Shown: piece by piece, positions 2,782-22,542 of the stretch
How positions within the stretch are numbered: position 1 is the stretch's first letter
Layout of the letters: each line of letters begins with the position of its first letter
IMG/VR virus record: IMGVR_UViG_3300032605_000888
Location: 1-25,722 of that record
DNA length: 25,722 nt
Source: a virus
Reading direction: 5' to 3' (one strand)
The notes under the pieces: model-generated
What the model was told of the DNA's origin: nothing
Seen by the model: only the letters and a program-made list of their open reading frames with translations
Database searches by the model: none
Program-made: the position numbers and the translations under genes

Positions 2782-3936
2782 CTACACTAAGTAGCTGTCC
2801 AAATCTGGCAACAAATACCCTGGGATATTGATATTATTGTTGATAATATAGTAAGGACTTGTACATTTCTTTAATCCCACCTGAGTGCCAGCGTTACGTG
2901 ATATATATTGATCGTTTATAGAGCTTAAGAACTGTTTATTAGTCCAACGCCAAGATTGAAAGTACTTGGGATTATAATCATTGATCCAATGGTCGCTTTT
3001 CCATAACATAGATCCTTTGGGTTTAGCGACCTGAAATGTATCTGGATTATAATCAGGACAACATACAATCTGATAGATGTGTTTATAGTAGGTGGAAATG
3101 TATTTTGTATCAGACCCTGTTAGCTTTAATTGTTTCATTTTTTCTAGGTTGTCTAAAATAAACTCAAGAATGTTGTGCGCCTGCATTACAGGAATCATTG
3201 GTGCGTCGGGGGACCAATAAAACATTTCTGTATTTCTGTCCGGGTCCTGAGCTCCGCCTAGATTATCAGTAAAATACGCATAAAAAGAATTGTTACTAAT
3301 CCCGCATTTAATTTTATCATATCCGAGTACTACGCCTACACTCTTATTTTTTTCTATTTGGGCTTGTTCAAATTTTGATTTACGATTAAATCTAAAAAAC
3401 GATAGCATCGACTGATAGTGATTACTTGCAAAGAAATCTGATTCAGATAGTTCTTGCTGAATACATTCTGAGTAATCATCAACTACTATATTAGTATTAG
3501 GATAGTTCTTTTTAATATAATCTAAGACAGGAACTACTGCGTATTCAAACTCACTGGATAAATTAGAAGAATCTTTATTGCTACTGTCGGGATCTTTGAA
3601 TTTACGTTCAGCAAATGCCCAGCGTGTGAATATTTCATCAACGTGAATGCCATTACTTAAAAAACTATTCAATACCGTCCATGAGTCCATTCCACCACTA
3701 AAGTGTATGATTACATAGTCATACTTGTCGCGAATTTGCTGAGCACGTTCTCTATATAAATCTCTTAGGGTACCTGCGGGCCGGTGACTCCAGTTGATAG
3801 CATTAAATACATCGTCATGAAACTTCCAAATCAATTCTTTGCCTGTTTTGGAGGCTTGAAACACAGCCTCAGACTTGTTTATGTATATTTGATCGCCGAC
3901 TGTATAATAGCCATGTGGTGAATTAATTGGAATCAT
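2782..3936 (-). CDS. PP-loop ATP pyrophosphatase, asparagine-synthase-like
   Basis: This 384-residue protein carries the N-type ATP pyrophosphatase motif SGGMDS at residues 80-85 (context VIIHFSGGMDSWTVLNSF), which binds ATP pyrophosphate in enzymes that adenylate a carboxylate or carbonyl (asparagine synthase, GMP synthase, tRNA thiolases). The N-terminus MIPINSPHGYYTVGDQIY resembles phage proteins of this type that I recall from marine T4-like phages, but no substrate is established. An upstream ATG at 3963 exists; I choose 3936 because it overlaps the upstream stop as ATGA, like neighbouring genes. It is the last gene of a cassette with two methyltransferases and Bug-like proteins, suggesting a small biosynthetic or modification pathway (inference). 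Confidence 0.8.
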   Translation of the reverse strand: MIPINSPHGYYTVGDQIYINKSEAVFQASKTGKELIWKFHDDVFNAINWSHRPAGTLRDLYRERAQQIRDKYDYVIIHFSGGMDSWTVLNSFLSNGIHVDEIFTRWAFAERKFKDPDSSNKDSSNLSSEFEYAVVPVLDYIKKNYPNTNIVVDDYSECIQQELSESDFFASNHYQSMLSFFRFNRKSKFEQAQIEKNKSVGVVLGYDKIKCGISNNSFYAYFTDNLGGAQDPDRNTEMFYWSPDAPMIPVMQAHNILEFILDNLEKMKQLKLTGSDTKYISTYYKHIYQIVCCPDYNPDTFQVAKPKGSMLWKSDHWINDYNPKYFQSWRWTNKQFLSSINDQYISRNAGTQVGLKKCTSPYYIINNNINIPGYLLPDLDSYLV

Positions 3937-4562
3937 CGGTAGCACATAAATGAAGTAAAACACCAGCTGGCATCAATAATTTGTATATTTTTAAATCCAA
4001 TGCACTCTAAGGTATCCAGGTACCACTTGGGATCTCGGATATACATTATATCTTTTACAGCGTTTTCTTTAGATTCAATTTCTTCCAGAGTTACACCTTG
4101 CGCTAATTTCCAATTATGATAATGATTTATAGCAGTAGGATCCAGACTTGTCTTTTCGCTTAAGATAAAGAAACCGTCTGGTTGCATATTACGATGTATG
4201 TCTATTAGATATTTTTCTTTATCTTCTATAAAGTGTAAAGTCCAGTTACACAGAACAGCATCAAATGTTTCGTTGGGAAATCTATCACTGTGTATCAATC
4301 TAGCAACGCTGGGATCACAATATTTTAACATTGCATGACTGGCCTCGACACCTATTAAGTTATCAAATCCTGCAGAATTTAATCTACGTAGAGTTTCTCC
4401 TGTGGCGCAACCTACATCAATGATGCAACTCGATTCTTCTAAGTACCATTTGCACATACTAACGCATTTATCAATTACAAGATCGTAGTTGGGTATATGT
4501 TGACGTGCATGGTCAACAAAGTTTTTGGCAATGCCATCATCAAACTTCCAAGGTTGGGTCAT
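3933..4562 (-). CDS. Class I SAM-dependent methyltransferase, CmoA-like
   Basis: This is a 209-residue class I methyltransferase. Motif I is IIDVGCATGETLRRL (about residues 53-67), followed by an acidic motif II (LIGVEASHAML) and a motif IV region (FDAVLCNWTLHF). The N-terminal PWKFDDGIAKNFVDHARQHI and the GCATG motif recall CmoA-type carboxy-SAM enzymes that act on tRNA wobble uridine, but that assignment is not certain. ATG at 4562 is preferred over 4640 because it sits 10 nt after the upstream stop and avoids a long overlap. It couples by ATGA to the PP-loop gene. Confidence 0.75.
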   Translation of the reverse strand: MTQPWKFDDGIAKNFVDHARQHIPNYDLVIDKCVSMCKWYLEESSCIIDVGCATGETLRRLNSAGFDNLIGVEASHAMLKYCDPSVARLIHSDRFPNETFDAVLCNWTLHFIEDKEKYLIDIHRNMQPDGFFILSEKTSLDPTAINHYHNWKLAQGVTLEEIESKENAVKDIMYIRDPKWYLDTLECIGFKNIQIIDASWCFTSFMCYR

Positions 4563-4572
4563 ATGGGTTATG

Positions 4573-5172
4573 TTACTTGATATTTTGGTAAAAGTCAATG
4601 GTCTTTTGTTGTTGCTCTCGAAAATCTTCTGCGGTTCCATTCCAGGGGCGGAACTCTAAATCTTCAAGACGTTGACGGTATTTGTCTTTTTTGAATCCAT
4701 CAACTAATACTTGTTCTAGCTTCTTTGCTAATTCTGGATCCATTGTAGCTGGCGCAACGATGCCATACCAATTGTCTATATCTATTCCAGGATACAACGT
4801 ACTTAAACAATCTATATCAAGGCCGCTGACACTATCTAATACAGCAATAGCGCAAACGTCGGGGTTAGCTTTTGCAGCCACCCAAGTGTCAAATGCAAAG
4901 TCTATTTCACCTGCAACCAATGCTTCAGCCTGTGTGGTACTACCAGTATAGGTGCGGGTAGTGGGTGTGGGTAAGCCGGCAAGTTTAATCCATTGATTGA
5001 TAACTCTTGCAGTTGGTTCGTGCCAGAATCCCAGAGTAAATCCCTCATGGACTTTTTTTAAAAAATCATTATAACTGCGAATATCTAGTGTGGAACGTGC
5101 TACAAGAACAAAACTGGTACGGGCTACAGGTGTTAACGGGACAAAACTGTCCCGTGTATATCCTAAGGACAT
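4573..5172 (-). CDS. Bug/TctC-like solute-binding protein, C-terminal part of a split gene
   Basis: These 199 residues align by eye with residues from about 95 to the end of the intact Bug-like protein encoded upstream: TRDSFVPLTPVARTSFVLVA matches the upstream EQSFVPIVPLANISYVLAV, GSTTQAEALVAGEIDFAFDTW matches GSTPQMQDLVGGQVMSGFDTW, and IDNWYGIVAPATMDPELAKK matches VGVWYGLWAPTGTPKATVDE. It starts at ATG 5172, which overlaps the TAA of the N-terminal piece (TAATG), so it could be made by re-initiation, or the pair may be a frameshifted pseudogene. Bug proteins bind small carboxylates in the periplasm; this half alone would lack part of the binding pocket and has no signal peptide. Confidence 0.7.
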   Translation of the reverse strand: MSLGYTRDSFVPLTPVARTSFVLVARSTLDIRSYNDFLKKVHEGFTLGFWHEPTARVINQWIKLAGLPTPTTRTYTGSTTQAEALVAGEIDFAFDTWVAAKANPDVCAIAVLDSVSGLDIDCLSTLYPGIDIDNWYGIVAPATMDPELAKKLEQVLVDGFKKDKYRQRLEDLEFRPWNGTAEDFREQQQKTIDFYQNIK

Positions 5173-5435
5173 TACGCTAGATTAGATCCAACGCTGGTAG
5201 CACAACCTACCATTAATTTGTCTGCTAAGTTTGCACCAACTGAAGTAGCACAACCTACCATCAAACTACTATCTTTACTCGAGGCGTAACGAGCACCAAC
5301 AGCGTTATTATCGCCTGGCATGTTTGTTACAGTAACGTCGTAACCTGCTTCTTTAAGAATATCCATAGCAATACGACCAACTGAGTCAGTTGCGCCACCT
5401 TGAGGATAAGGAACTACGATTTCTAATTTTGACAT
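5172..5435 (-). CDS. Bug/TctC-like solute-binding protein, N-terminal part of a split gene
   Basis: This 87-residue product starts MSKLEIVVPYPQGGATDSVG, the N-terminal signature of mature Bug/TctC proteins, directly at ATG 5435 with GGAG 7 nt upstream. It therefore has no signal peptide, unlike the intact homologue at 5459-6400. Near the end a 16-residue unit, LMVGCATSVGANLADK, is followed by a near-copy LMVGCATSVGSNLA and then TAA, after which the C-terminal piece continues in another frame. The repeat copies share their first bases but differ at many synonymous positions later, suggesting recombination between diverged copies rather than a simple slip. The unit may be a pseudogene, a split protein, or contain a sequencing error. 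Confidence 0.7.
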   Translation of the reverse strand: MSKLEIVVPYPQGGATDSVGRIAMDILKEAGYDVTVTNMPGDNNAVGARYASSKDSSLMVGCATSVGANLADKLMVGCATSVGSNLA

Positions 5436-5458
5436 ATTATTACTCCGGGAATATGCAA

Positions 5459-6400
5459 TTATTTATCTACTTCTGCGGCAATACGCTTTAGTATCTGCAA
5501 ATTACGTTTTTGTAACACAAGTAGAGATTCTGAAGTGCCACCATATGTTTTAATATTAAGCATATCCATCTTTTCGCGGTACTTAGATTCTTTAAATGCT
5601 GCATTAATGATTCGGTTCAACTCGTCTACGGTAGCCTTGGGAGTACCTGTTGGAGCCCATAACCCGTACCATACACCCACATTCAATTCTGGGTGTGCAG
5701 TTGATATAGCAATAGCCGAGCTGTCGGGTTTAATTTTTTTAATAACTGATAATCCACCCTGGTCCAATGTAGCAAGTACACGGACCTTGTCGGCAGCAAA
5801 GAACGGCTGAATTGCTAACCATGTATCAAATCCCGACATGACCTGCCCGCCAACTAAGTCCTGCATTTGCGGAGTAGATCCTTTGTACAAAATGATTGTC
5901 GGACGAGGCAACCCCTCTTTCTTAGCCCAATCATAAAATATATTAGCAGTATTGGCATTCCAAAACGCCAAATTAAATTTATCTGGATTCGCCTTAACAT
6001 AAAATTTAAACTGTTCGTAATTTTTAATAGGACTACCGGAGGGCACCGCCAGTACATAACTAATATTTGCTAACGGTACAATAGGAACAAAACTTTGTTC
6101 TGTGTATTCCATACCTTGTGCTTTAAATGCTATGTTAGCGTCAAGAGCACCTGTTGCACCAACAAACAATGTTTTGCCATCGGGTTTTCCTTTAGCAACA
6201 TAATTGGCACCAATGACAGCATCAGCTCCGGGCTTGTTTACAACAATACTTGGCATACCGTGTTCATTAAGAATTTCGCCAACAATGCGTCCTAGACTGT
6301 CTGTGGCCCCTCCCGGTGGATAAGGTACTACAATTTCAATTGGCTGTGCCGCAAATACTGCTGTTGATACAAATAATAATAGTGTTGCTAAAAATTTCAT
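5459..6400 (-). CDS. Bug/TctC-family periplasmic solute-binding protein
   Basis: This 313-residue protein has a signal peptide (MKFLATLLLFVSTAVFAAQ, predicted cleavage after VFA) and the family signature IEIVVPYPPGGATDSLGR, followed by NKPGADAVIGANYVA, GSTPQMQDLVGGQ and VGVWYGLWAPTGTP. These are hallmarks of Bug proteins, the extracytoplasmic receptors of tripartite tricarboxylate transporters, very abundant in Burkholderiales. No TctA or TctB transporter genes are in this window, so the phage would depend on host components or use the protein otherwise. An upstream in-frame ATG at 6433 exists, but ATG 6400 overlaps the methyltransferase stop as ATGA and gives a correct signal peptide. The length is normal for the family. 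Confidence 0.88.
   Translation of the reverse strand: MKFLATLLLFVSTAVFAAQPIEIVVPYPPGGATDSLGRIVGEILNEHGMPSIVVNKPGADAVIGANYVAKGKPDGKTLFVGATGALDANIAFKAQGMEYTEQSFVPIVPLANISYVLAVPSGSPIKNYEQFKFYVKANPDKFNLAFWNANTANIFYDWAKKEGLPRPTIILYKGSTPQMQDLVGGQVMSGFDTWLAIQPFFAADKVRVLATLDQGGLSVIKKIKPDSSAIAISTAHPELNVGVWYGLWAPTGTPKATVDELNRIINAAFKESKYREKMDMLNIKTYGGTSESLLVLQKRNLQILKRIAAEVDK
5460..5467 (-). promoter_or_regulatory. Late-promoter-like element (GATAAATA)
   Basis: GATAAATA, 7/8 to T4 late TATAAATA, 24 nt upstream of the split Bug-like gene. It is also coding sequence for the last codons of the upstream gene (GAT AAA TAA), so it could be chance. Confidence 0.35.
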
Positions 6401-7248
6401 TTCTTCATCCAATCTACGTAATTTTTGTTCCACTCAGCGGGATCATTGAATATGTCCTCACACAAACTGTGATGACGTGCTTTTGAATCTCGTGTAAACT
6501 CTACAACAAAGCGACCAATTTTCTTTGGATCTTTAAACATACCAAAGTTATCGGGGAACTCTGTTTTAAGTTGTTCGTAAACATCTAGGTTAGCAGTAAA
6601 GCCATTAATTTCCATAATAGTCTTTAGTGCAGCAATACTTGAGTTAGCGGCTGTACACTTGATACTGCCGTTAACTGCGGCCAGCATAGTCATGTCGCCA
6701 GCTTGCCATTCTGTATAAGGGATTTCGTATTCCAAGTCGTGCCAAAAGTCGTGCGGTAGTATATCTTGGTTGCCGTTCCACATCCACTTAGGATGGCGGC
6801 TTTCTACAATAATGTGATCACCTCTATGTGCTAAGTGTCTCATAAACCAAGCATGGTCGTGGTGGCCAAATAATACACCCCAACAAAAGATAATATCATA
6901 TTTTTCATCATTACCAAGAAAGAACTCTGTTAAACTTTGGTTAATGATTTCCCAGTTATTATCTTTATGATACTTAGTTAATAGTTCAGTTGCCGTTTCG
7001 CAAAACTCTGGACTAATCTCCACACCTGTGTAACTTGCGGCACCATTGCTTAAACACCAATCGCCTGTTTGTCCAATGAAGCTACCGATATCTAATATAC
7101 GTTTATTAAGTAATCGCTCGGGAGGCAATAGCCATTCGTGTTTTTTAATTGTAATGTTAGGGTTCATTGGAACGCCACACTCTGGTGGACGATTCGCTCT
7201 AAAGTCTTTTTCCAAGAACTCAGGATGTTGTTTGAAGGAGTTTATCAT
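6397..7248 (-). CDS. Class I SAM-dependent methyltransferase (283 aa)
   Basis: A class I methyltransferase fold is indicated by motif I RILDIGSFIGQTGDWCLSNG (about residues 49-68), an acidic strand-2 end (SYTGVEIS) and a later YDIIFCWGVLFGHHDH block in the motif IV position. The substrate is unknown; the long C-terminal region (after about residue 165) with EIPYTEWQAGDMTMLAA may be a substrate domain. It is the first gene of the cassette, starting only 20-odd nt after the tmRNA 3' hairpin, with no strong ribosome site, and it couples by ATGA to the Bug-like gene. Confidence 0.8.
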   Translation of the reverse strand: MINSFKQHPEFLEKDFRANRPPECGVPMNPNITIKKHEWLLPPERLLNKRILDIGSFIGQTGDWCLSNGAASYTGVEISPEFCETATELLTKYHKDNNWEIINQSLTEFFLGNDEKYDIIFCWGVLFGHHDHAWFMRHLAHRGDHIIVESRHPKWMWNGNQDILPHDFWHDLEYEIPYTEWQAGDMTMLAAVNGSIKCTAANSSIAALKTIMEINGFTANLDVYEQLKTEFPDNFGMFKDPKKIGRFVVEFTRDSKARHHSLCEDIFNDPAEWNKNYVDWMKK

Positions 7249-7270
7249 TTTATCTTTGAAAGTGAGAGAA

Positions 7271-7284
7271 GCCCCCGGAGGGGC
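7271..7284 (-). terminator. GC hairpin at the 3' end of the tmRNA gene
   Basis: GCCCC and GGGGC form a 5-bp stem with a UCCG loop followed by TTCTCTC. It is probably the transcript end or the 3' hairpin of the tmRNA coding piece. The U tract is imperfect. Confidence 0.5.
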
Positions 7285-7326
7285 TGGTTGTTTCTGTTAC
7301 GAGGCATTTCCTGCCCTAAGCAGTTT

Positions 7327-7359
7327 TTAGGCTGCTAATGCGTAAACTGAATCGTTTGC
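7327..7359 (-). other. tmRNA tag-peptide reading frame
   Basis: Codons GCA AAC GAT TCA GTT TAC GCA TTA GCA GCC TAA encode ANDSVYALAA and stop. The resume codon is GCA (Ala), preceded by ATAGAC. The C-terminal ALAA is the signal read by ClpXP-type proteases. Confidence 0.93.
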
Positions 7360-7443
7360 GTCTATAGATTTGCTTGATTTATGGTCATCGCCTACCCTGT
7401 TGCCTTTGTCGCTATCTCACCATGTCGAAACCTTGTCATCCCC

Positions 7444-7500
7444 ACCCAAGTATACTGTCCCACGGACTTTGCACTCCCATTTGGTTGCACAATATACTTA
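7444..7500 (-). other. tmRNA intervening segment removed during processing
   Basis: This 57-nt segment joins the mature 3' end (7501) to the mature 5' end (7443). AAGTATA and TATACTT at its borders are complementary and extend the acceptor stem, which would present both cut sites to RNase P and 3' processing enzymes, as in known permuted tmRNAs. Confidence 0.85.
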
Positions 7501-7596
7501 GGTGGAGATGCCGGGAATCGAACCCGGGTCCACAATGCCTTTACTCTAAAGGAATTACAACAATTCTATTGACTATCTAACCAATCCTTTAGTTCT

Positions 7597-7624
7597 ATCA
7601 TACAATATAATAAAACTGCTACAA
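7597..7624 (-). promoter_or_regulatory. Candidate promoter of the tmRNA gene
   Basis: Minus strand TTGTAG (7624-7619), a 16-nt spacer, TATGAT (7602-7597). Transcription would start near 7590, just before the acceptor piece. A late-like ACTAAATA also occurs at 7655-7662. Neither is strong. Confidence 0.45.
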
Positions 7625-7663
7625 TCATAAGATAGGCCAGATATGTCATATAATTATTTAGTG

Positions 7664-7840
7664 TTAAATACAGCTTGCGCCGTACTTATTTTCACCTGGT
7701 GTGCTAGGGACAAACATGATAGCTAGGCTAACGACCCATCCAACGTATGGTACTAGAGTTAGTAAAATCCATACACCACTTTGACCAAAGTCACGAATAC
7801 GTTGACTACCTGCGGCCCAAACAGGACTTATACGCTTCAC
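7664..7840 (-). CDS. Short DUF805-like membrane protein (C-terminal half only)
   Basis: Hand translation gives 58 residues from a GTG at 7840: QRIRDFGQSGVWILLTLVPY and then VGWVVSLAIMFVPSTPGENK. This matches the end of DUF805 inner-membrane proteins (R-x-HD-x-G-x-SGWW ... L-x-PGTPG-x-NxYG). The family is normally about 110-130 residues with more membrane segments; here only the last one or two are present. An in-frame TAA lies 11 codons before the GTG, so it cannot extend. There is no clear ribosome site. It could be a real short form, coupled to the 109-aa gene 22 nt upstream, or a remnant. Confidence 0.55.
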   Translation of the reverse strand: MKRISPVWAAGSQRIRDFGQSGVWILLTLVPYVGWVVSLAIMFVPSTPGENKYGASCI

Positions 7841-7862: not shown

Positions 7863-8192
7863 TTACTCAGCTACTGCGTCGAGTAATGCACGGGCTTTGA
7901 TATCTTCCAAGCTAGGCTTGGCTTTTACCTTGGTTGCTTTGGCAGATACTGTGCCATTGTACTTGGCATCAGCTGCGTCAATCGCCGCTTTATAGTCAGC
8001 GTTTGCATACAACTCAGTTGTCTTAAGGAATACAACCAATGCTGGCTTGGTCATGCCTTCTGGTAGCTCGAGCAAATTGATATCGCTATCTGTCTTTGCA
8101 AGGATCTTAACACGAGTCATGTCAGTAGCAAAACGTACTTTATACTGACCTTTAGTTTTAGAAACACCACCAACTTTGAACAATTTATTCAT
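7863..8192 (-). CDS. Small phage protein of unknown function (109 aa)
   Basis: This basic protein begins MNKLFKVGGVSKTKGQYKVR, has a central beta-rich part and an Ala/Lys-rich C-terminus (YNGTVSAKATKVKAKPSLED). I choose ATG 8192 over 8207 because GGAG lies 9 nt upstream of it while the earlier ATG has no ribosome site. Function unknown; charge suggests nucleic-acid association, which is only a guess. Confidence 0.75.
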   Translation of the reverse strand: MNKLFKVGGVSKTKGQYKVRFATDMTRVKILAKTDSDINLLELPEGMTKPALVVFLKTTELYANADYKAAIDAADAKYNGTVSAKATKVKAKPSLEDIKARALLDAVAE

Positions 8193-8258
8193 TTTGTAAA
8201 ACTCCATTTTTAAGTTAAATTAAATTTACTACATTGTATGCTGGACACACTCCAACAT

Positions 8259-10370: not shown

Positions 10371-11350
10371 TTTGCACTCGCTACAAACCTTAGGTCTCTG
10401 CTTGTGCTGCCCAACTCTTTTTTCATTTGTGGTCCGGCTTGTTTAACGTCAACACGGGCAACGTGTGTTTCTGGTTCGTCTTGAGTAGTTACATTTACCG
10501 GTTCGTCGGTCTTTGTATCAAATCCGTGTATGTTTAACTTGCGACCGTAACGACGTTCTAATTCTTGCCAAACACGATATCCACCTGTACTTTGTTTGTT
10601 GTCTGACACCAGGGTCAAGCCACGATTTAAAATTAAGAAACCATATAGGTCTGCGGCACGGTACTGATTCTTAGGACCAGAGTAAACACCTTGGATGACA
10701 AAACTGTCGCGATTTGATTTGTACGGACGACCAGTTGTACCCAGCTGACTTGTGCGGGTGCGGGTATCAAATACATAGTAAGTAACAGTACCGCGATCTA
10801 CCCAAGACCAAAGTTGATAGCCGTGTCCCATTTCTGCTACTAAGTCGCCCATATGACTAGACTCATCACCTTTGGGTATAGGCTTGCCATCATTAGGCAT
10901 AACGTCTAAATGTTCACGTTTGCTTTTGGCAACGCTAGGCACTAACGTAACTTCTGCTACATTTTTAATACCAACGTAAGCCTTTATAGTAGGAATGCCT
11001 AATGCTTTTGCTACATTAGCTCTATGGTAACCATCTAAGATAAATCCATCACCAATAACAATAGGAGGTGCTTTACTAAAGTCCATTGTTTTATATTGTT
11101 CTACTTTAGACGAATCTAACTTAGGCAAATCTGTCTTAATAGAATTTACAGGAATATCTTTTAATTCAAATCCTGTAAAAGTATTAGTAATATAATCAGT
11201 ATAATCACTGTGTAAATTTGAATCGTGATATTTGCGAATATAACCAATAATATCTTCTGTAGAAACAGATTGACTTTCCATAATACCAGTGCTACGACGT
11301 AGGCGTAGCTCGTCGCTGATTTCGTTTAGGAATAACTCAGATATTAACAT
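10367..11350 (-). CDS. ParB-like domain protein with CTS-like N-terminus (327 aa)
   Basis: A ParB/sulfiredoxin-like domain spans about residues 62-130, with an IPVNSIKTDLPKLD strand, then ILDGYHRANVAKALGIPTIK (DGYHR at 106-110). A second domain from about 185 (HGYQLWSWVDRGTVTYYVFD) includes LTLVSDNKQSTGGYRVWQEL, a pattern I recall from large marine phage proteins but cannot name. I take ATG 11350, which overlaps the upstream TAA as TAATG and gives the start MLISELFLNEISDELRL, similar to T4 Alt; the alternative ATG 11374 would cause a 25-nt overlap. It is coupled to genes on both sides. Confidence 0.75.
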   Translation of the reverse strand: MLISELFLNEISDELRLRRSTGIMESQSVSTEDIIGYIRKYHDSNLHSDYTDYITNTFTGFELKDIPVNSIKTDLPKLDSSKVEQYKTMDFSKAPPIVIGDGFILDGYHRANVAKALGIPTIKAYVGIKNVAEVTLVPSVAKSKREHLDVMPNDGKPIPKGDESSHMGDLVAEMGHGYQLWSWVDRGTVTYYVFDTRTRTSQLGTTGRPYKSNRDSFVIQGVYSGPKNQYRAADLYGFLILNRGLTLVSDNKQSTGGYRVWQELERRYGRKLNIHGFDTKTDEPVNVTTQDEPETHVARVDVKQAGPQMKKELGSTSRDLRFVASAK

Positions 11351-14145
11351 TACGTACTCATCTTTGCTCGACAACTAAACAAGCTAGGATCTTCTGCGCC
11401 GATACCACGTAACCAGGCCTGTGCTGTTGACCACGCACTGGTTTGGTCGTGGTCAGCAAAGGTGTGTACTACGTTTCCAGAATCAAGCTCGTATACAATC
11501 CACAGTGGAACACCATTGGGTGCTGTTGCTTGTACAGGATCGCCTGAACGGTATTGTATATACGCATCATCTCTACCAGTCAAATCATTCACATATCGTT
11601 TGGCATCTATTGCCAGGTCTCGTAACTGTGATGAATGCCCGGGCATGGTTGGCAAGAAACCATAGATCCTGTTATCACTGCCGCCACGTACTTCATAGTA
11701 GTCGCCAGTACTAGGACGTTGACTTAACATTCCCGCCGGCGGGGTAGTATTGTCTTGTTGCGGAGTACGATTTGCTACACGTTCTGCGCTGGCATCAGTT
11801 GGAACACTACTCATAGTAACTTCGCTACCACGTCTGCTTTCGATGCCTCGTTTAACTGCTTGCGCTTGAATCAACGTAATATCGTGAACTTGATCTATTA
11901 GATTACCGCTGCTATCTTTAAACTGCCAAGTGCGTGGAACAGTATTGGCATCGTTTGCATCTTTTGGTGTGTCTTTTTCGTTGTGCAGTTCTAAATCGTC
12001 TACACTATCAAAATCGTGTTGCTGTGCTACCTTGACCAATAGTTTCTGTGCTTCTTCACGACTGACATTCATAATAGTATCAACCACACGGCCAGTTGGA
12101 CGATAAACAACGTTCCAATTTGGTTTAGGTGCTTTGATACGTTTGGCTAGCTTTTCACGCTGACTCAACTCTGGTGCAGGTGCATCTGGATCTGCTGGAC
12201 GTAAGTTAAATCCAATACCTTCTTTGCTGTACTTGTCGTATACTGAATCAGCAGCTTCGCCTTTGGTAGCAAAGCCGTTTAGAGTTTCTAGTGTTTCACC
12301 TGTGTTGACATCGTAAACTTCCCAGTCGCCTGTGGCACTACGCATTGGACGTAAGGTGTATTCCTTCTGGAAACCTTCCATACTACCGCCGGGACTGATT
12401 TTCTGTTTGGCACGTTCCCACGCATCGGATTTGGTATAACCGTTGTACTCTTGACCAACAACGGCCTTGCCTGTGGCATCCCATAGTTTCCAATCGCCTT
12501 TGGGTTCGTTGCTTAGAGCTTTATCGGCCCAGCTCTTTTTAAGTTCTTCACTGCTGATAGCACCTGTGGCAAAACGTGCAAATAAATCCAATGCAGGATC
12601 ACCTTCTACTGGTGCAATAAGTTTGTACAACTTCTTGTAGTATTCTTTGCGTTCTAGATCGGGACGGCTGGCAATATACATAGCCTGTGCATAGCGCATC
12701 AGGGTATTTTGTAATTTAGCGATATCTTCAAAGTAGTTTGTACCACCAGCTGAGCGGAACTCGATATACTTGGCACCTTTACGTTTAGTAGGATCTGGAC
12801 TAGTATTTGCACCTTGTGGGTTAATACTTGTATACTTGCCAAAGCCAGCATTGCTGATCTCTAGAGCCTTTTGTGCTAGTTCCAACAGGTTGTGCTTCAT
12901 TAGTTCTAGCGCACCAGCTACAGCTTCTTTGTTGCCACGCACACGTGTCTTGATCTTTTTCATTGCGGCTTCGGCATAGTGATTACTAGCACGACCAAAT
13001 GATTCTAGCACGTGTTCATCACCTAAGAATAGTGCTAGTTTAACATAGTCAACATCGCCGCCCTTGTTAGGTAAACTAACGCCCATATGGAAGCCAGTTG
13101 ATTCGTTAGAATAAGCACCATTGGACTCGGCCCATTCAAAGAACTGTTGCAACTTGGCTAAACATTCTTGTAAGGGCATAGGAGGACTAACAATCTCTAC
13201 TGGCATGTTGTCCGAATCGTCTGCATCTAAACTTGAATCTGGTTCAAAAATCCAAGTTTCATCATCACGTGTAGCTGAATGATATCCACCGGACACTTTG
13301 GTTTTAACACCTAATTCTTTACTTAAACTATCAGCTAAACTGCGAGCATTATCTTCGCTGAATCCACCCTCACTGCTCTGACCAGTGTAAGTAATAACGG
13401 GCCACACCAATTGAAATTCACTAGCAATGTCACTCATCCAACGCAGGCCAACATCACCAAAGAAACTACTATCGTCATCGACATAAAAATCATTGCGGAA
13501 GTCATCTAATGCTGAGTCGTAAGTGCCATCTTGTGCTTTAATACTGTCTTGAACTAGTTCGTCTAGTAGGCCTTCTGCTTCTTCGCGAGCATTAATATAG
13601 TTTGCATAGGCTTTGTTTGTTTTCATTGCCTCACGTTGTTCAACGGAGCTATTAAATTGAGGAGCCTCACTACCTTGTATCAAGGCATCGCTAACTTCAT
13701 CTTCGGACAGATCCATCAACTCTAACTGTTTACGAGTTTCGTCATCCCAATCAAAATCATCTTCTTCGATAATTTTTTTAATTAAATCTTCTTGCTCATC
13801 ACGGAAAGCATCGTACATTTTCTCGTCGACCCATTCCATATACTTTTCATCTAGCCCTTCTTGTAACTTATCCAAGTCTCGGCCATATGTAGCATAACCG
13901 TACTCGTCGTTACCGAAAAAGTTTATAACATCATCGATGCTATTGCAACGCTCGTCAGCATCATAATCGGGTTCGGGATCTTCATCGTAATCGGCTTCAC
14001 CGCCTTGTCCGGTAAACACAAGTTCTGCTTCAAATCCGGCCATGATGCCTTCTGCTTCGGGGCTACTAGCAAACTGCTGTAACGAACGAGGATTCATGCG
14101 AAGCTCGTCTAATTGTTGTTCGGAAAGTAGGTCTTTATATCTCAT
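11350..14145 (-). CDS. Large amidoligase-like protein with C-terminal repeats (931 aa)
   Basis: The N-terminus MRYKDLLSEQQLDELRMNPR is CTS-like. From about residue 36 (AGFEAELVF) to 490 the sequence fits the amidoligase/glutamate-cysteine-ligase-like COOH-NH2 ligase fold: GFE-x-EL strand, an acidic insertion (51-240), WIFEPDSSLDADDSDNMPVE and IVSPPMPL (298-325), STGFHMGVSLPN (349-360), and KYIEFRSAGGTNY (459-471). Such enzymes form amide bonds between carboxylates and amines using ATP. The C-terminal half (about 550-915) contains at least five copies of a unit with W-x-V then a TG or SG turn and a helix (starts near 551, 607, 676, 739 and 881). No ribosome site is visible. A late-like element and a hairpin precede it. 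Confidence 0.75.
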   Translation of the reverse strand: MRYKDLLSEQQLDELRMNPRSLQQFASSPEAEGIMAGFEAELVFTGQGGEADYDEDPEPDYDADERCNSIDDVINFFGNDEYGYATYGRDLDKLQEGLDEKYMEWVDEKMYDAFRDEQEDLIKKIIEEDDFDWDDETRKQLELMDLSEDEVSDALIQGSEAPQFNSSVEQREAMKTNKAYANYINAREEAEGLLDELVQDSIKAQDGTYDSALDDFRNDFYVDDDSSFFGDVGLRWMSDIASEFQLVWPVITYTGQSSEGGFSEDNARSLADSLSKELGVKTKVSGGYHSATRDDETWIFEPDSSLDADDSDNMPVEIVSPPMPLQECLAKLQQFFEWAESNGAYSNESTGFHMGVSLPNKGGDVDYVKLALFLGDEHVLESFGRASNHYAEAAMKKIKTRVRGNKEAVAGALELMKHNLLELAQKALEISNAGFGKYTSINPQGANTSPDPTKRKGAKYIEFRSAGGTNYFEDIAKLQNTLMRYAQAMYIASRPDLERKEYYKKLYKLIAPVEGDPALDLFARFATGAISSEELKKSWADKALSNEPKGDWKLWDATGKAVVGQEYNGYTKSDAWERAKQKISPGGSMEGFQKEYTLRPMRSATGDWEVYDVNTGETLETLNGFATKGEAADSVYDKYSKEGIGFNLRPADPDAPAPELSQREKLAKRIKAPKPNWNVVYRPTGRVVDTIMNVSREEAQKLLVKVAQQHDFDSVDDLELHNEKDTPKDANDANTVPRTWQFKDSSGNLIDQVHDITLIQAQAVKRGIESRRGSEVTMSSVPTDASAERVANRTPQQDNTTPPAGMLSQRPSTGDYYEVRGGSDNRIYGFLPTMPGHSSQLRDLAIDAKRYVNDLTGRDDAYIQYRSGDPVQATAPNGVPLWIVYELDSGNVVHTFADHDQTSAWSTAQAWLRGIGAEDPSLFSCRAKMST

Positions 14146-17141: not shown

Positions 17142-18384
17142 ATTCGGGTAAGTACCTTAGGATGCCATTGTTTCTACTGGCTTCTAATAATTTAATGTAG
17201 TCAACAAGAGCAGGCAGTCTAAATGATTCGTCTGGTTGATTTTCCAAGTAATCTATATAACTACGAGCATCTTGGATAATCTGTTGCTGGGCAACTGCGG
17301 GATGTCTGGTGTTTATAATTTGTTCAGTGTTTGTGCTATCGTATCTATTGATCCAGCTAGATAATCTTTCTATCACCTGCGGTCTAACTGCCATGGGCAG
17401 TACACTAGGACGCATAAATGCTGGGTCGTTTAAAAAATTACAACTCTCAACAGCTATATTATGATTATAAGCATATTCGTATACAGTATCAAGATGCCAT
17501 ATAGTAAAGATAGTTGGAGTAATTCTTAACTGCACTAACCAGCTGGATTCCTGTGCAATTTCTATCCACTGCTCCATGATTTTAACAGAGTCGTCGATAT
17601 TGCCGCCATATCTAACGTAATCGTTTAATGGATGAATACATTCAATACTCATGCCAAGATTAACCTGCTCAAACTGTTTGAGTAAATCAACTATACTTTG
17701 ATCCCATACAGTAAGGTTAGTAGTAAACCCCACTGTAATTGTTTTATGCAAATTTTCTTCTATTAGAGTTTCTAATATTCGTTTAAAGCCGGGAGTGATT
17801 AATGTTTCACCGCCGATAAAGTGTAGGTATTTAATTGTTGTACTTGCTCGTAATGCATCAAGGAAGGTATTGAACTTGGCTGGATCTTCGCACCAGCTGG
17901 CACGCGGAGTTTGGTCAATTATTCCTATGCGTTTAAATTCTGATGCCAACTTGCTACTACTTGCTGGGTCACAGAATATACAAGCACTATTACAAAAGTT
18001 GCCTAGGTCAATTTGCCAGTCTTGCGGAGTTTGCTTTGTGACTGTATTTTTAAATTCATCAACCCAGGGACTTGATAACATGGTGTTAGTGAAGTCATTC
18101 AATTGAACACCAGTTTTAAGTAATTGTTTTTGACGACCACTTACTTTACCGTGCGCTTCCATTTGATAACATTCTGTACAACCTAACAATTTTTCCCCAC
18201 GTAACATAGACTCACGTACAGGAGCCATACCTTGTTGGAAAAACTCTAACGGAGCTGTGTCAGCAATGCTGGGCAAACTTGTTCTGTCCTGCTTGGTTGC
18301 CCAACGACAATATTCATAATGCCCAGAGTTATTGATTCTCATATGGAACCAAGGGCTCGGGCAAAATGAATCTTTAAATGTCAT
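17110..18384 (-). CDS. Radical SAM enzyme, phage twitch-domain type (424 aa)
   Basis: The radical SAM cluster motif is GNFCNSACIFCDP, CxxxCxxC at C131, C135 and C138, followed by LHFIGGETLITPGF (the GGE SAM-binding motif). N-terminal cysteines at C8, C26, C69 and C72 (FCPSPW, YEYCRW, LLGCTEC) may hold a second iron-sulfur cluster, fitting the phage 'twitch domain-containing radical SAM' type. Enzymes of this kind often modify peptides; the substrate here is unknown. It is coupled by ATGA to clpP upstream and overlaps the 84-aa gene downstream. Confidence 0.88.
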   Translation of the reverse strand: MTFKDSFCPSPWFHMRINNSGHYEYCRWATKQDRTSLPSIADTAPLEFFQQGMAPVRESMLRGEKLLGCTECYQMEAHGKVSGRQKQLLKTGVQLNDFTNTMLSSPWVDEFKNTVTKQTPQDWQIDLGNFCNSACIFCDPASSSKLASEFKRIGIIDQTPRASWCEDPAKFNTFLDALRASTTIKYLHFIGGETLITPGFKRILETLIEENLHKTITVGFTTNLTVWDQSIVDLLKQFEQVNLGMSIECIHPLNDYVRYGGNIDDSVKIMEQWIEIAQESSWLVQLRITPTIFTIWHLDTVYEYAYNHNIAVESCNFLNDPAFMRPSVLPMAVRPQVIERLSSWINRYDSTNTEQIINTRHPAVAQQQIIQDARSYIDYLENQPDESFRLPALVDYIKLLEASRNNGILRYLPEYEELLRSAGY

Positions 18385-19001
18385 CGTTTAGTAACAACCT
18401 CGTCTGCAAGTCCATATGCAACTGCTTCTTCCGCTGACAGGAATGTGTCAAACTTCATAGCTTCGTAAAGTTCATCATACTCTTTGCCTGCGGTGTTGTG
18501 ACGTGCATACAGTTCAGTTAGACGTTTATTAATACGAACGCTTTCTTCGAATGTACGCTTTGCATCTTCGAACTGCAAGTCTTGTACGTGTACACTACCA
18601 CGTGTACCTGGAGTACCTGAACTAACACGATGGATCATTGTGCGTGATTCTGGAAGAACTATTCGCTTACCTGCGGTGCCTGCCTGTGCAAGGAAGCTAC
18701 CCATGGAGCAGGCCTGTCCTAATACTATAGTGGATACATCAGGTTTGATAAACTGCATTGTATCGTAGATAGCTAGGCCTGCTGTAACGCTGCCACCAGG
18801 GCTGTTGATGTAGAATAATATGTCCGCATCTGGATTTTCACTTTCTAAAAATAACATCTGGGCAACAATTAAACTAGAACTGTGTTCGTTTACGTCTGTG
18901 TCCAGCATAACAATACGGTCACGCAACAAACGACTATAGATGTCGTAAGCACGTTCGCCATTGGCAGTTTTTTCCAGAACGGTAGGTACAAAATTAGGCA
19001 T
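18381..19001 (-). CDS. clpP: ATP-dependent Clp protease proteolytic subunit (206 aa)
   Basis: This is a full-length ClpP serine protease. The catalytic triad is visible: Ser99 in LGQACSMGSFLA, His124 in RTMIHRVSSG and Asp185 in KFDTFLSAEEA. The FYINSPGGSVTAGLAIYDTM block is the oxyanion/head region. Phage ClpP has been seen in several T4-like phages and may be used for head maturation or with host ClpX/ClpA. The sequence ends ADEVVTKR. A good AAGGA ribosome site precedes ATG 19001, and a sigma70-type promoter at 19029-19057 is probable. No ClpX or ClpA gene is present in the window. Confidence 0.93.
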   Translation of the reverse strand: MPNFVPTVLEKTANGERAYDIYSRLLRDRIVMLDTDVNEHSSSLIVAQMLFLESENPDADILFYINSPGGSVTAGLAIYDTMQFIKPDVSTIVLGQACSMGSFLAQAGTAGKRIVLPESRTMIHRVSSGTPGTRGSVHVQDLQFEDAKRTFEESVRINKRLTELYARHNTAGKEYDELYEAMKFDTFLSAEEAVAYGLADEVVTKR

Positions 19002-22005: not shown

Positions 22006-22542
22006 TTAGATCTCAATGTTACTGTTTTTAGCCTTATTGTAAAAAATATGATCACCAATTTGTCCTGCTTCGTGCCGAGTGTCGACCCATTTTGGATCAC
22101 GGATATATATGGCATGATAATACAAACTATGCATCAAGCCACTGACACGATAACCGGTTAAAACTTTTTCTGCTACTTGACGGCTCTCTGCCCAAACTGT
22201 AGGATCAGGGTTTGGTAACTTCTTTTGTAATGTCCACGAAAACTGAGACTTGGCATAAACTACCTTACAAACTGTATTGCCCCAGTGACCGGTCTTCAAC
22301 CGATTTACTGTCACATGAGCAACCGCATACTTTCCCGGCGTGGCTTCTACTCCTGCTTCATAATACACGTTTTTAGTTAAACAGTCGAGATCGTTCTTGG
22401 TGTAGTTTACCTTTTCTGTAGTTTGAATAATGTCTGTAAGCTGATCTATCTTGTCCTCAACCTTGTCCATACGCAATTCTTGACGCAGGAGTAAGAGTGC
22501 AAGTAGAGTGCAAGCAATAATAATTAAGTTACGGTTTGACAT
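22006..22542 (-). CDS. SleB-type cell wall hydrolase, probable endolysin (178 aa)
   Basis: Residues 50-175 match the SleB-type Hydrolase_2 pattern: CLTKNVYYEAGVEATPGKYA, VAHVTVNRL, VCKVVYAKSQFSW. The conserved Glu in the YYEAGVE block is the likely catalytic residue. The N-terminus MSNRNLIIIACTLLALLLLR is a membrane anchor or SAR-type signal, so the enzyme may reach the cell wall without a classic holin. It overlaps the upstream 75-aa gene by TAATG. Such enzymes cut peptidoglycan glycan strands and would release phage. Confidence 0.83.
   Translation of the reverse strand: MSNRNLIIIACTLLALLLLRQELRMDKVEDKIDQLTDIIQTTEKVNYTKNDLDCLTKNVYYEAGVEATPGKYAVAHVTVNRLKTGHWGNTVCKVVYAKSQFSWTLQKKLPNPDPTVWAESRQVAEKVLTGYRVSGLMHSLYYHAIYIRDPKWVDTRHEAGQIGDHIFYNKAKNSNIEI

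Follow-up and report, generated by a model that had tools for sequence, protein, structure and literature searches.

The window, a 25,722-nt stretch of DNA taken from an IMG/VR virus record, carries a circularly permuted tmRNA (ssrA) gene on its minus strand. We consider it quite probable that this locus is an intact, phage-encoded permuted ssrA whose product would serve as an auxiliary ribosome-rescue RNA, using the SmpB, AlaRS and nucleases of the host.

Two kinds of search located the gene. An independent ARAGORN call placed a permuted tmRNA with the tag ANDSVYALAA at 7592-7236 (minus strand). The covariance models of Rfam matched over their whole length: beta_tmRNA (RF01850) at 7614-7263 with 165.6 bits (E = 9.6e-52), and tmRNA_permuted (RF04321) at 7562-7327 with 145.3 bits, both on the minus strand and both above the respective gathering scores of 84 and 47. 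Sequence, Rfam and ARAGORN all put the tRNA-like 3' part ahead of the 5' part and the tag frame. A sequence-only reading of this DNA had proposed this permuted, two-piece order; every element that it named is present on the minus strand, and the covariance models recover them in permuted order. The parts of the gene are as follows.

7501..7592, minus strand: acceptor piece, first in the transcript (RF01850 and RF04321 alignments, ARAGORN, sequence)
7527-7511, minus strand: T arm (sequence)
7510-7504, minus strand: acceptor 3' strand CATCTCC (sequence)
7503-7501, minus strand: ACC after the acceptor 3' strand (sequence)
7444..7500, minus strand: intervening segment, 57 nt, whose ends pair and lengthen the acceptor helix (fold z -4.4)
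7327..7443, minus strand: coding piece, 5' part, with the acceptor 5' strand, the GGTTTCGAC loop and the tag frame (sequence, Rfam, ARAGORN)
7443-7437, minus strand: acceptor 5' strand GGGGATG (sequence)
7432-7424, minus strand: GGTTTCGAC (sequence)
7359-7330, minus strand: tag frame ANDSVYALAA, with stop TAA at 7329-7327 (sequence, ARAGORN)
7263..7326, minus strand: coding piece, 3' part (the RF01850 match extends to 7263)
7285-7270, minus strand: G+C-rich hairpin AGCCCCTCCGGGGGCT, end of the 3' part of the coding piece (fold)

Besides the T arm, the acceptor 3' strand and the ACC, the acceptor piece holds a strand for pairing with the coding piece; as in the beta_tmRNA consensus, the gene lacks the last A of CCA. 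The acceptor stem is paired at seven of seven positions, with the G3-U70 wobble at 7441/7506, just as had been described from the letters. The joining segment with pairing ends was likewise borne out: together with the acceptor stem, it forms a single long helix of -49.9 kcal/mol (z -4.4), and none of 200 shuffled sequences was equally stable. The gene elements and the long helix are far beyond chance. Presumably, the 57-nt segment is cut out of the precursor. The tag frame is open and ends, directly before the stop, in a small/hydrophobic degron. The T run behind hairpin AGCCCCTCCGGGGGCT is weak on the minus strand. No sigma-70-like promoter was found just upstream of the tmRNA on that strand, and expression may therefore depend on an upstream or a phage-specific promoter. 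Directly 5' of the gene lie two small, hydrophobic open frames (7566-7649 and 7664-7840, minus strand) of 27 aa (MTYLAYLMIVAVLLYCMIELKDWLDSQ) and 58 aa, the longer of which resembles a DUF805-like membrane protein by eye.

The surroundings of the gene are those of a phage. Proteins encoded in the window include an endolysin, a DNA ligase, a 5'(3')-nucleotidase, a nuclease and ClpP. The same sequence lies within a 78-kb contig (L123, record G001), which adds a weak match to a virion structural protein, a homing endonuclease, a second endolysin and large proteins matching phage families. Three neighboring genes are referred to below.

7863..8207, minus strand: gene for a 114-aa protein, function not assigned, upstream of the tmRNA and a marker of its slot (74-90% identical genes in the same place in eight relatives, the identical contig being excluded)
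18381..19001, minus strand: phage-encoded ClpP protease subunit, about 11 kb from the tmRNA (PF00574, 215 bits)
22006..22542, minus strand: SleB-type cell-wall hydrolase, an endolysin (phrog_938 lysis, E = 8e-23)

Relatives of the window were gathered by means of a 931-aa protein (11350-14145) that is unrelated to the tmRNA; this search yielded nine IMG/VR records of 30-357 kb. In all nine, a permuted tmRNA scored above the cut-off, sat after the 114-aa protein gene inside the same-strand gene block, and had an open tag frame with an Ala-Ala end. We conclude that the window tmRNA is a phage gene; the sequence-only reading, which had assigned the contig to a phage while allowing for host chromosome, was sound on this point. 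SmpB was not found in 17 records, most of them fragments, which makes its absence weak evidence; any function of the tmRNA would therefore depend on the SmpB of the host. The 931-aa protein itself, encoded on the minus strand, matches amidoligase (PF12224) weakly and falls in no PHROG family; it is kept in large phages at 53-69% identity.

Pairing is conserved among phage copies of the gene. The 104 distinct copies have 16 different acceptor-stem sequences, and 728 of 728 pairs are standard; when the acceptor 3' strands were shuffled among copies, the mean was 569 pairs and the maximum 604, on a parser that took the best-pairing of a few placements and demanded a 5' GGG, which somewhat favors pairing. 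G3-U70 is present in every parsed copy, across all 16 stem sequences. Pairing of at least 7 bp between the ends of the intervening segment was seen in 70 of the 104 copies, compared to 4 of 104 after shuffling. Judged by their sequences, the phage permuted tmRNAs appear functional. In three copies (L139, L141 and L148), the intervening segment, counted from the CCA end to the acceptor 5' strand, is about 95 nt long and contains a short open frame that starts in an AAAAGGA context and encodes a hydrophobic peptide (MFNDWHWTYLWGIAVVANYLFWIVKSLF..., MDHEAVLLGAFVLIGLVLVFF). This frame may be due to chance, as AAAAGG also pairs as a stem arm.

The phage copies are also set apart from bacterial ones. 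Because tmRNA sequences are short, best-hit counts were used instead of a tree. For each of the 113 distinct phage copies, the best match was another phage copy and not a bacterial permuted one, and for all 93 bacterial permuted copies it was bacterial; the bacterial set of about 94 copies was drawn from Burkholderiales and from a phylum-wide sample, and the true hosts may be missing from it. Of the 349 Burkholderiales genomes sampled, the nearest matched the window gene at only 77% over 106 bases (74 bits), and the match to phage copy L071 was 89% over 182 bases (235 bits). The window and L071 have the intervening segment in common, with few base differences that are mostly compatible with the stem, and their tags are quite different. 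This combination points to an exchange of parts between phage tmRNA genes.

From the observed anatomy, phage location, and conservation of the gene and its pairing, we infer a course of events that runs from transcription, processing and charging through SmpB use and tagging to a benefit for the phage. The permuted gene would give rise to one transcript, from which tRNA-processing nucleases of the host would excise the 57-nt intervening segment, leaving two RNAs that stay joined through the acceptor stem and the helix between the pieces. Host enzymes would complete the CCA (the CCA-adding enzyme), and host AlaRS would charge the molecule with alanine by way of G3-U70. With host SmpB, it could then enter ribosomes stalled on cut or stopless mRNA, append ANDSVYALAA and release them; the tagged protein would be degraded by host ClpX with ClpP of the host or, possibly, of the phage. 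A phage may profit from such an RNA because infection, with its mRNA decay, nuclease action and heavy late translation, adds stalled ribosomes. The roles put forward earlier, namely that the phage replaces or supplements host rescue or feeds its own ClpP, are plausible. The matter bears on the question of why a phage without SmpB carries its own ribosome-rescue RNA.

Might the gene be a passenger instead? That the contig comes from a host chromosome or is a bacterial piece binned by mistake is extremely unlikely: tmRNA, ClpP and TctC genes are typically bacterial, but the source is a virus record, endolysin, DNA ligase, 5'-nucleotidase and virion structural families occur in the window and its 78-kb longer copy, and the gene block recurs in contigs of up to 357 kb. 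The conserved phage gene block led us to rule out host contamination. It is also very unlikely that the gene arose as a by-product of integration at a host tmRNA gene, an attachment-site copy carried along unused. tmRNA genes are favored integration sites of mobile elements (PMC4383910), and an accessory cargo island (2782-7248) begins directly behind the tmRNA. However, the gene is complete in both pieces rather than a mere 3' fragment, its slot is conserved in the nine relatives, its nearest kin are phage and not bacterial copies, and a search of 26 records, tmRNA-bearing or related and in many cases incomplete, turned up no tyrosine integrase. An attachment-site remnant was ruled out on the complete gene, the conserved slot and this lack of an integrase.

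The main rival to auxiliary rescue is a competitor role, in which the phage tmRNA would draw SmpB or stalled ribosomes away from that of the host and alter the tag while adding no rescue. A precedent exists in phage DS6A, whose tmRNA consists of the tRNA domain only and, on expression in E. coli, inhibits that of the host (PMC11915505, PMC4131195), and some phage copies have long tags without an Ala-Ala end. The coding piece of the window copy, on the other hand, is full and its tag ordinary, so that this copy should tag and release as host tmRNA does. We therefore regard competition as unlikely for this locus and retain auxiliary rescue as the preferred reading.

The window gene is a further case of the already described two-piece phage tmRNAs; what is added here is their commonness in large environmental phages, their distinctness from sampled bacterial copies and their frequent adjacency to a lysis gene. 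The sequence-only reading had held that known phage tmRNAs are one-piece, a view that is outdated. OM43 phage Melnitz has a permuted two-piece tmRNA, and 53 of 133 distinct phage tmRNA structures in 2022 were two-piece, 50 of them aquatic; the Melnitz ssrA was proposed to keep the hijacked translation machinery in working order or to tag host proteins (PMC9004378). Melnitz and its marine kin resemble the window in having a complete permuted tmRNA gene in a large, lytic-type phage, with an integrase neither reported there nor found here. They differ in that the Melnitz ssrA is of the alphaproteobacterial type, whereas the window gene fits the beta model best, and in the genome neighborhood. Melnitz also has a glutamine riboswitch in the ssrA 3' domain, a feature that does not define the kind; no such Rfam match was obtained in the window up to E = 1. 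With the betaproteobacterial family (RF01850) and the merged one (RF04321), the window gene shares the piece order, acceptor stem, T arm, GGUUUCGAC loop, tag position, intervening segment and incompletely encoded CCA; those families are bacterial, whereas the window copy is phage-borne. The tmRNAs of mycobacteriophages Bxz1 and Wildcat and of Bacillus phage G are one-piece; they are phage-encoded like the window gene, but the latter is permuted. These three were listed as ssrA phages (PMC4131195) before any report of two-piece forms in phages. The permuted model applied here comes from the tmRNA database, which lists 79 bacteriophage sequences (PMC11915505). Pelagibacter phage HTVC008M gave a weak match to permuted tmRNA.

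Permuted tmRNAs were also found in Stenotrophomonas phages of the genus Menderavirus (IME-SM1, Bhz51 and others), isolated phages of 160 kb in which the gene is located in a tRNA cluster and the tag was called as VAANDDSYTVRIAA. Bhz51 (L122, OR797040.1) and L002 are isolated carriers. Across nine genomes of a Lysobacterales family centered on a Xanthomonas-labeled MAG, the one tmRNA type to reach the cut-off was the standard one-piece form. Because these carriers have been isolated and the related bacteria have the one-piece form, the RNAs of host and phage could be distinguished within a single infected cell by their form and tag. The Stenotrophomonas phages and their one-piece Lysobacterales relatives thus make a tractable pair with which the question becomes testable.

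How common is this arrangement? A search pattern for the permuted order (T loop, 65-95 bases, GGTTTCGAC) was found in at least 120 IMG/VR stretches; ARAGORN called a permuted tmRNA at 108 of 120 loci among the matches listed. Prevalence was gauged with 50 contigs of at least 25 kb, drawn with two arbitrary 15-mers that lie mostly in unrelated genes. A permuted tmRNA scored above the cut-off in seven of the 50, and in four of the nine contigs of at least 100 kb, in a small, length- and composition-weighted sample. This shows that permuted tmRNA genes are not rare in large environmental phages. It suggests that the permuted phage tmRNA is no marine curiosity, being common in such phages and evolving separately from the bacterial copies.

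Most phage tags resemble bacterial ones, and that of the window is ordinary. Tags of at least 20 residues were called in 24 of 108 phage copies vs. 5 of 94 bacterial copies, and tags without an Ala-Ala end in 16 of 108 vs. 2 of 94; a few of these calls are likely ARAGORN errors, on the phage and bacterial sides alike. Unusual phage examples are ANASKGEVTVSGKGIRFSARTAQRQTLAV, ANADTFDFSAMSFTGNTVRGAANESRFALAA and ANKIVAFSRQTALV. Tags of 23-33 residues, several of which end in LAV or FAV instead of LAA, occur in L014, L067, L071, L092, L105 and L027, and also in L012, L039, L045, L035 and L007. The C-terminal Leu-Ala-Ala is the part that ClpX recognizes, and tags ending in -AV or -LV may therefore be weaker degrons. 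No homolog of the long tag was found in phage records. The notion that the long GEVTVSGK tags are a conserved protein sequence was discarded: the frame is kept, but codon differences are mostly nonsynonymous and so lend no support to amino-acid conservation. Nor could a host be named by its tag, as the ANDxVYALAA pattern led, in bacterial genomes, to gammaproteobacteria with a one-piece tmRNA and to no permuted gene with the tag. A more far-reaching proposal is that the permuted tmRNAs form a long-established, phage-adapted family of large environmental phages, distinct from the copies of hosts and associated with the lysis module, with tags rewritten by phages; we offer it tentatively and think it rather doubtful. 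If it were true, the 22-33-residue tags of several lineages, some of which end in -AV or -LV, might rescue ribosomes without delivery to ClpXP, or with a fate chosen by the phage.

A SleB-type hydrolase gene lies within 3.5 kb downstream of the tmRNA and on the same strand at 29 of the 60 loci with enough sequence, compared to 2 of 159 control loci with such a gene. After dereplication of the hydrolases at 90% identity, 33 of 34 near copies were downstream and on the same strand. About a dozen loci have a ClpP-like protease gene after the hydrolase. In the window, the tmRNA, ClpP and hydrolase are on one strand, but spread over 15 kb. No earlier report of a link between tmRNA and SleB hydrolase was found in the literature searched. 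The link would fit late expression alongside the lysis genes. ClpP is encoded in eight of the nine relatives. A general link between permuted tmRNA and ClpP outside this lineage was considered and set aside: PF00574, which also takes in head proteases, was present in 20 of 34 large pattern-bearing records vs. 7 of 16 large controls, an unconvincing difference on small numbers, and in 4 of 12 control contigs without tmRNA.

The cargo island behind the tmRNA, which reaches to the next conserved gene, holds a TctC/Bug-type periplasmic solute-binding protein gene (4573-6433, minus strand; PF03401, 104 bits), flanked by one or two shortened or repeated copies. Genes of this type hint at a Burkholderiales-like host. 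Beside them (2782-4640 and 6397-7248, minus strand) are two methyltransferase genes and a gene for a 393-aa protein of no known family; L134 and L092 have similar gene sets, which suggests a mobile cassette.
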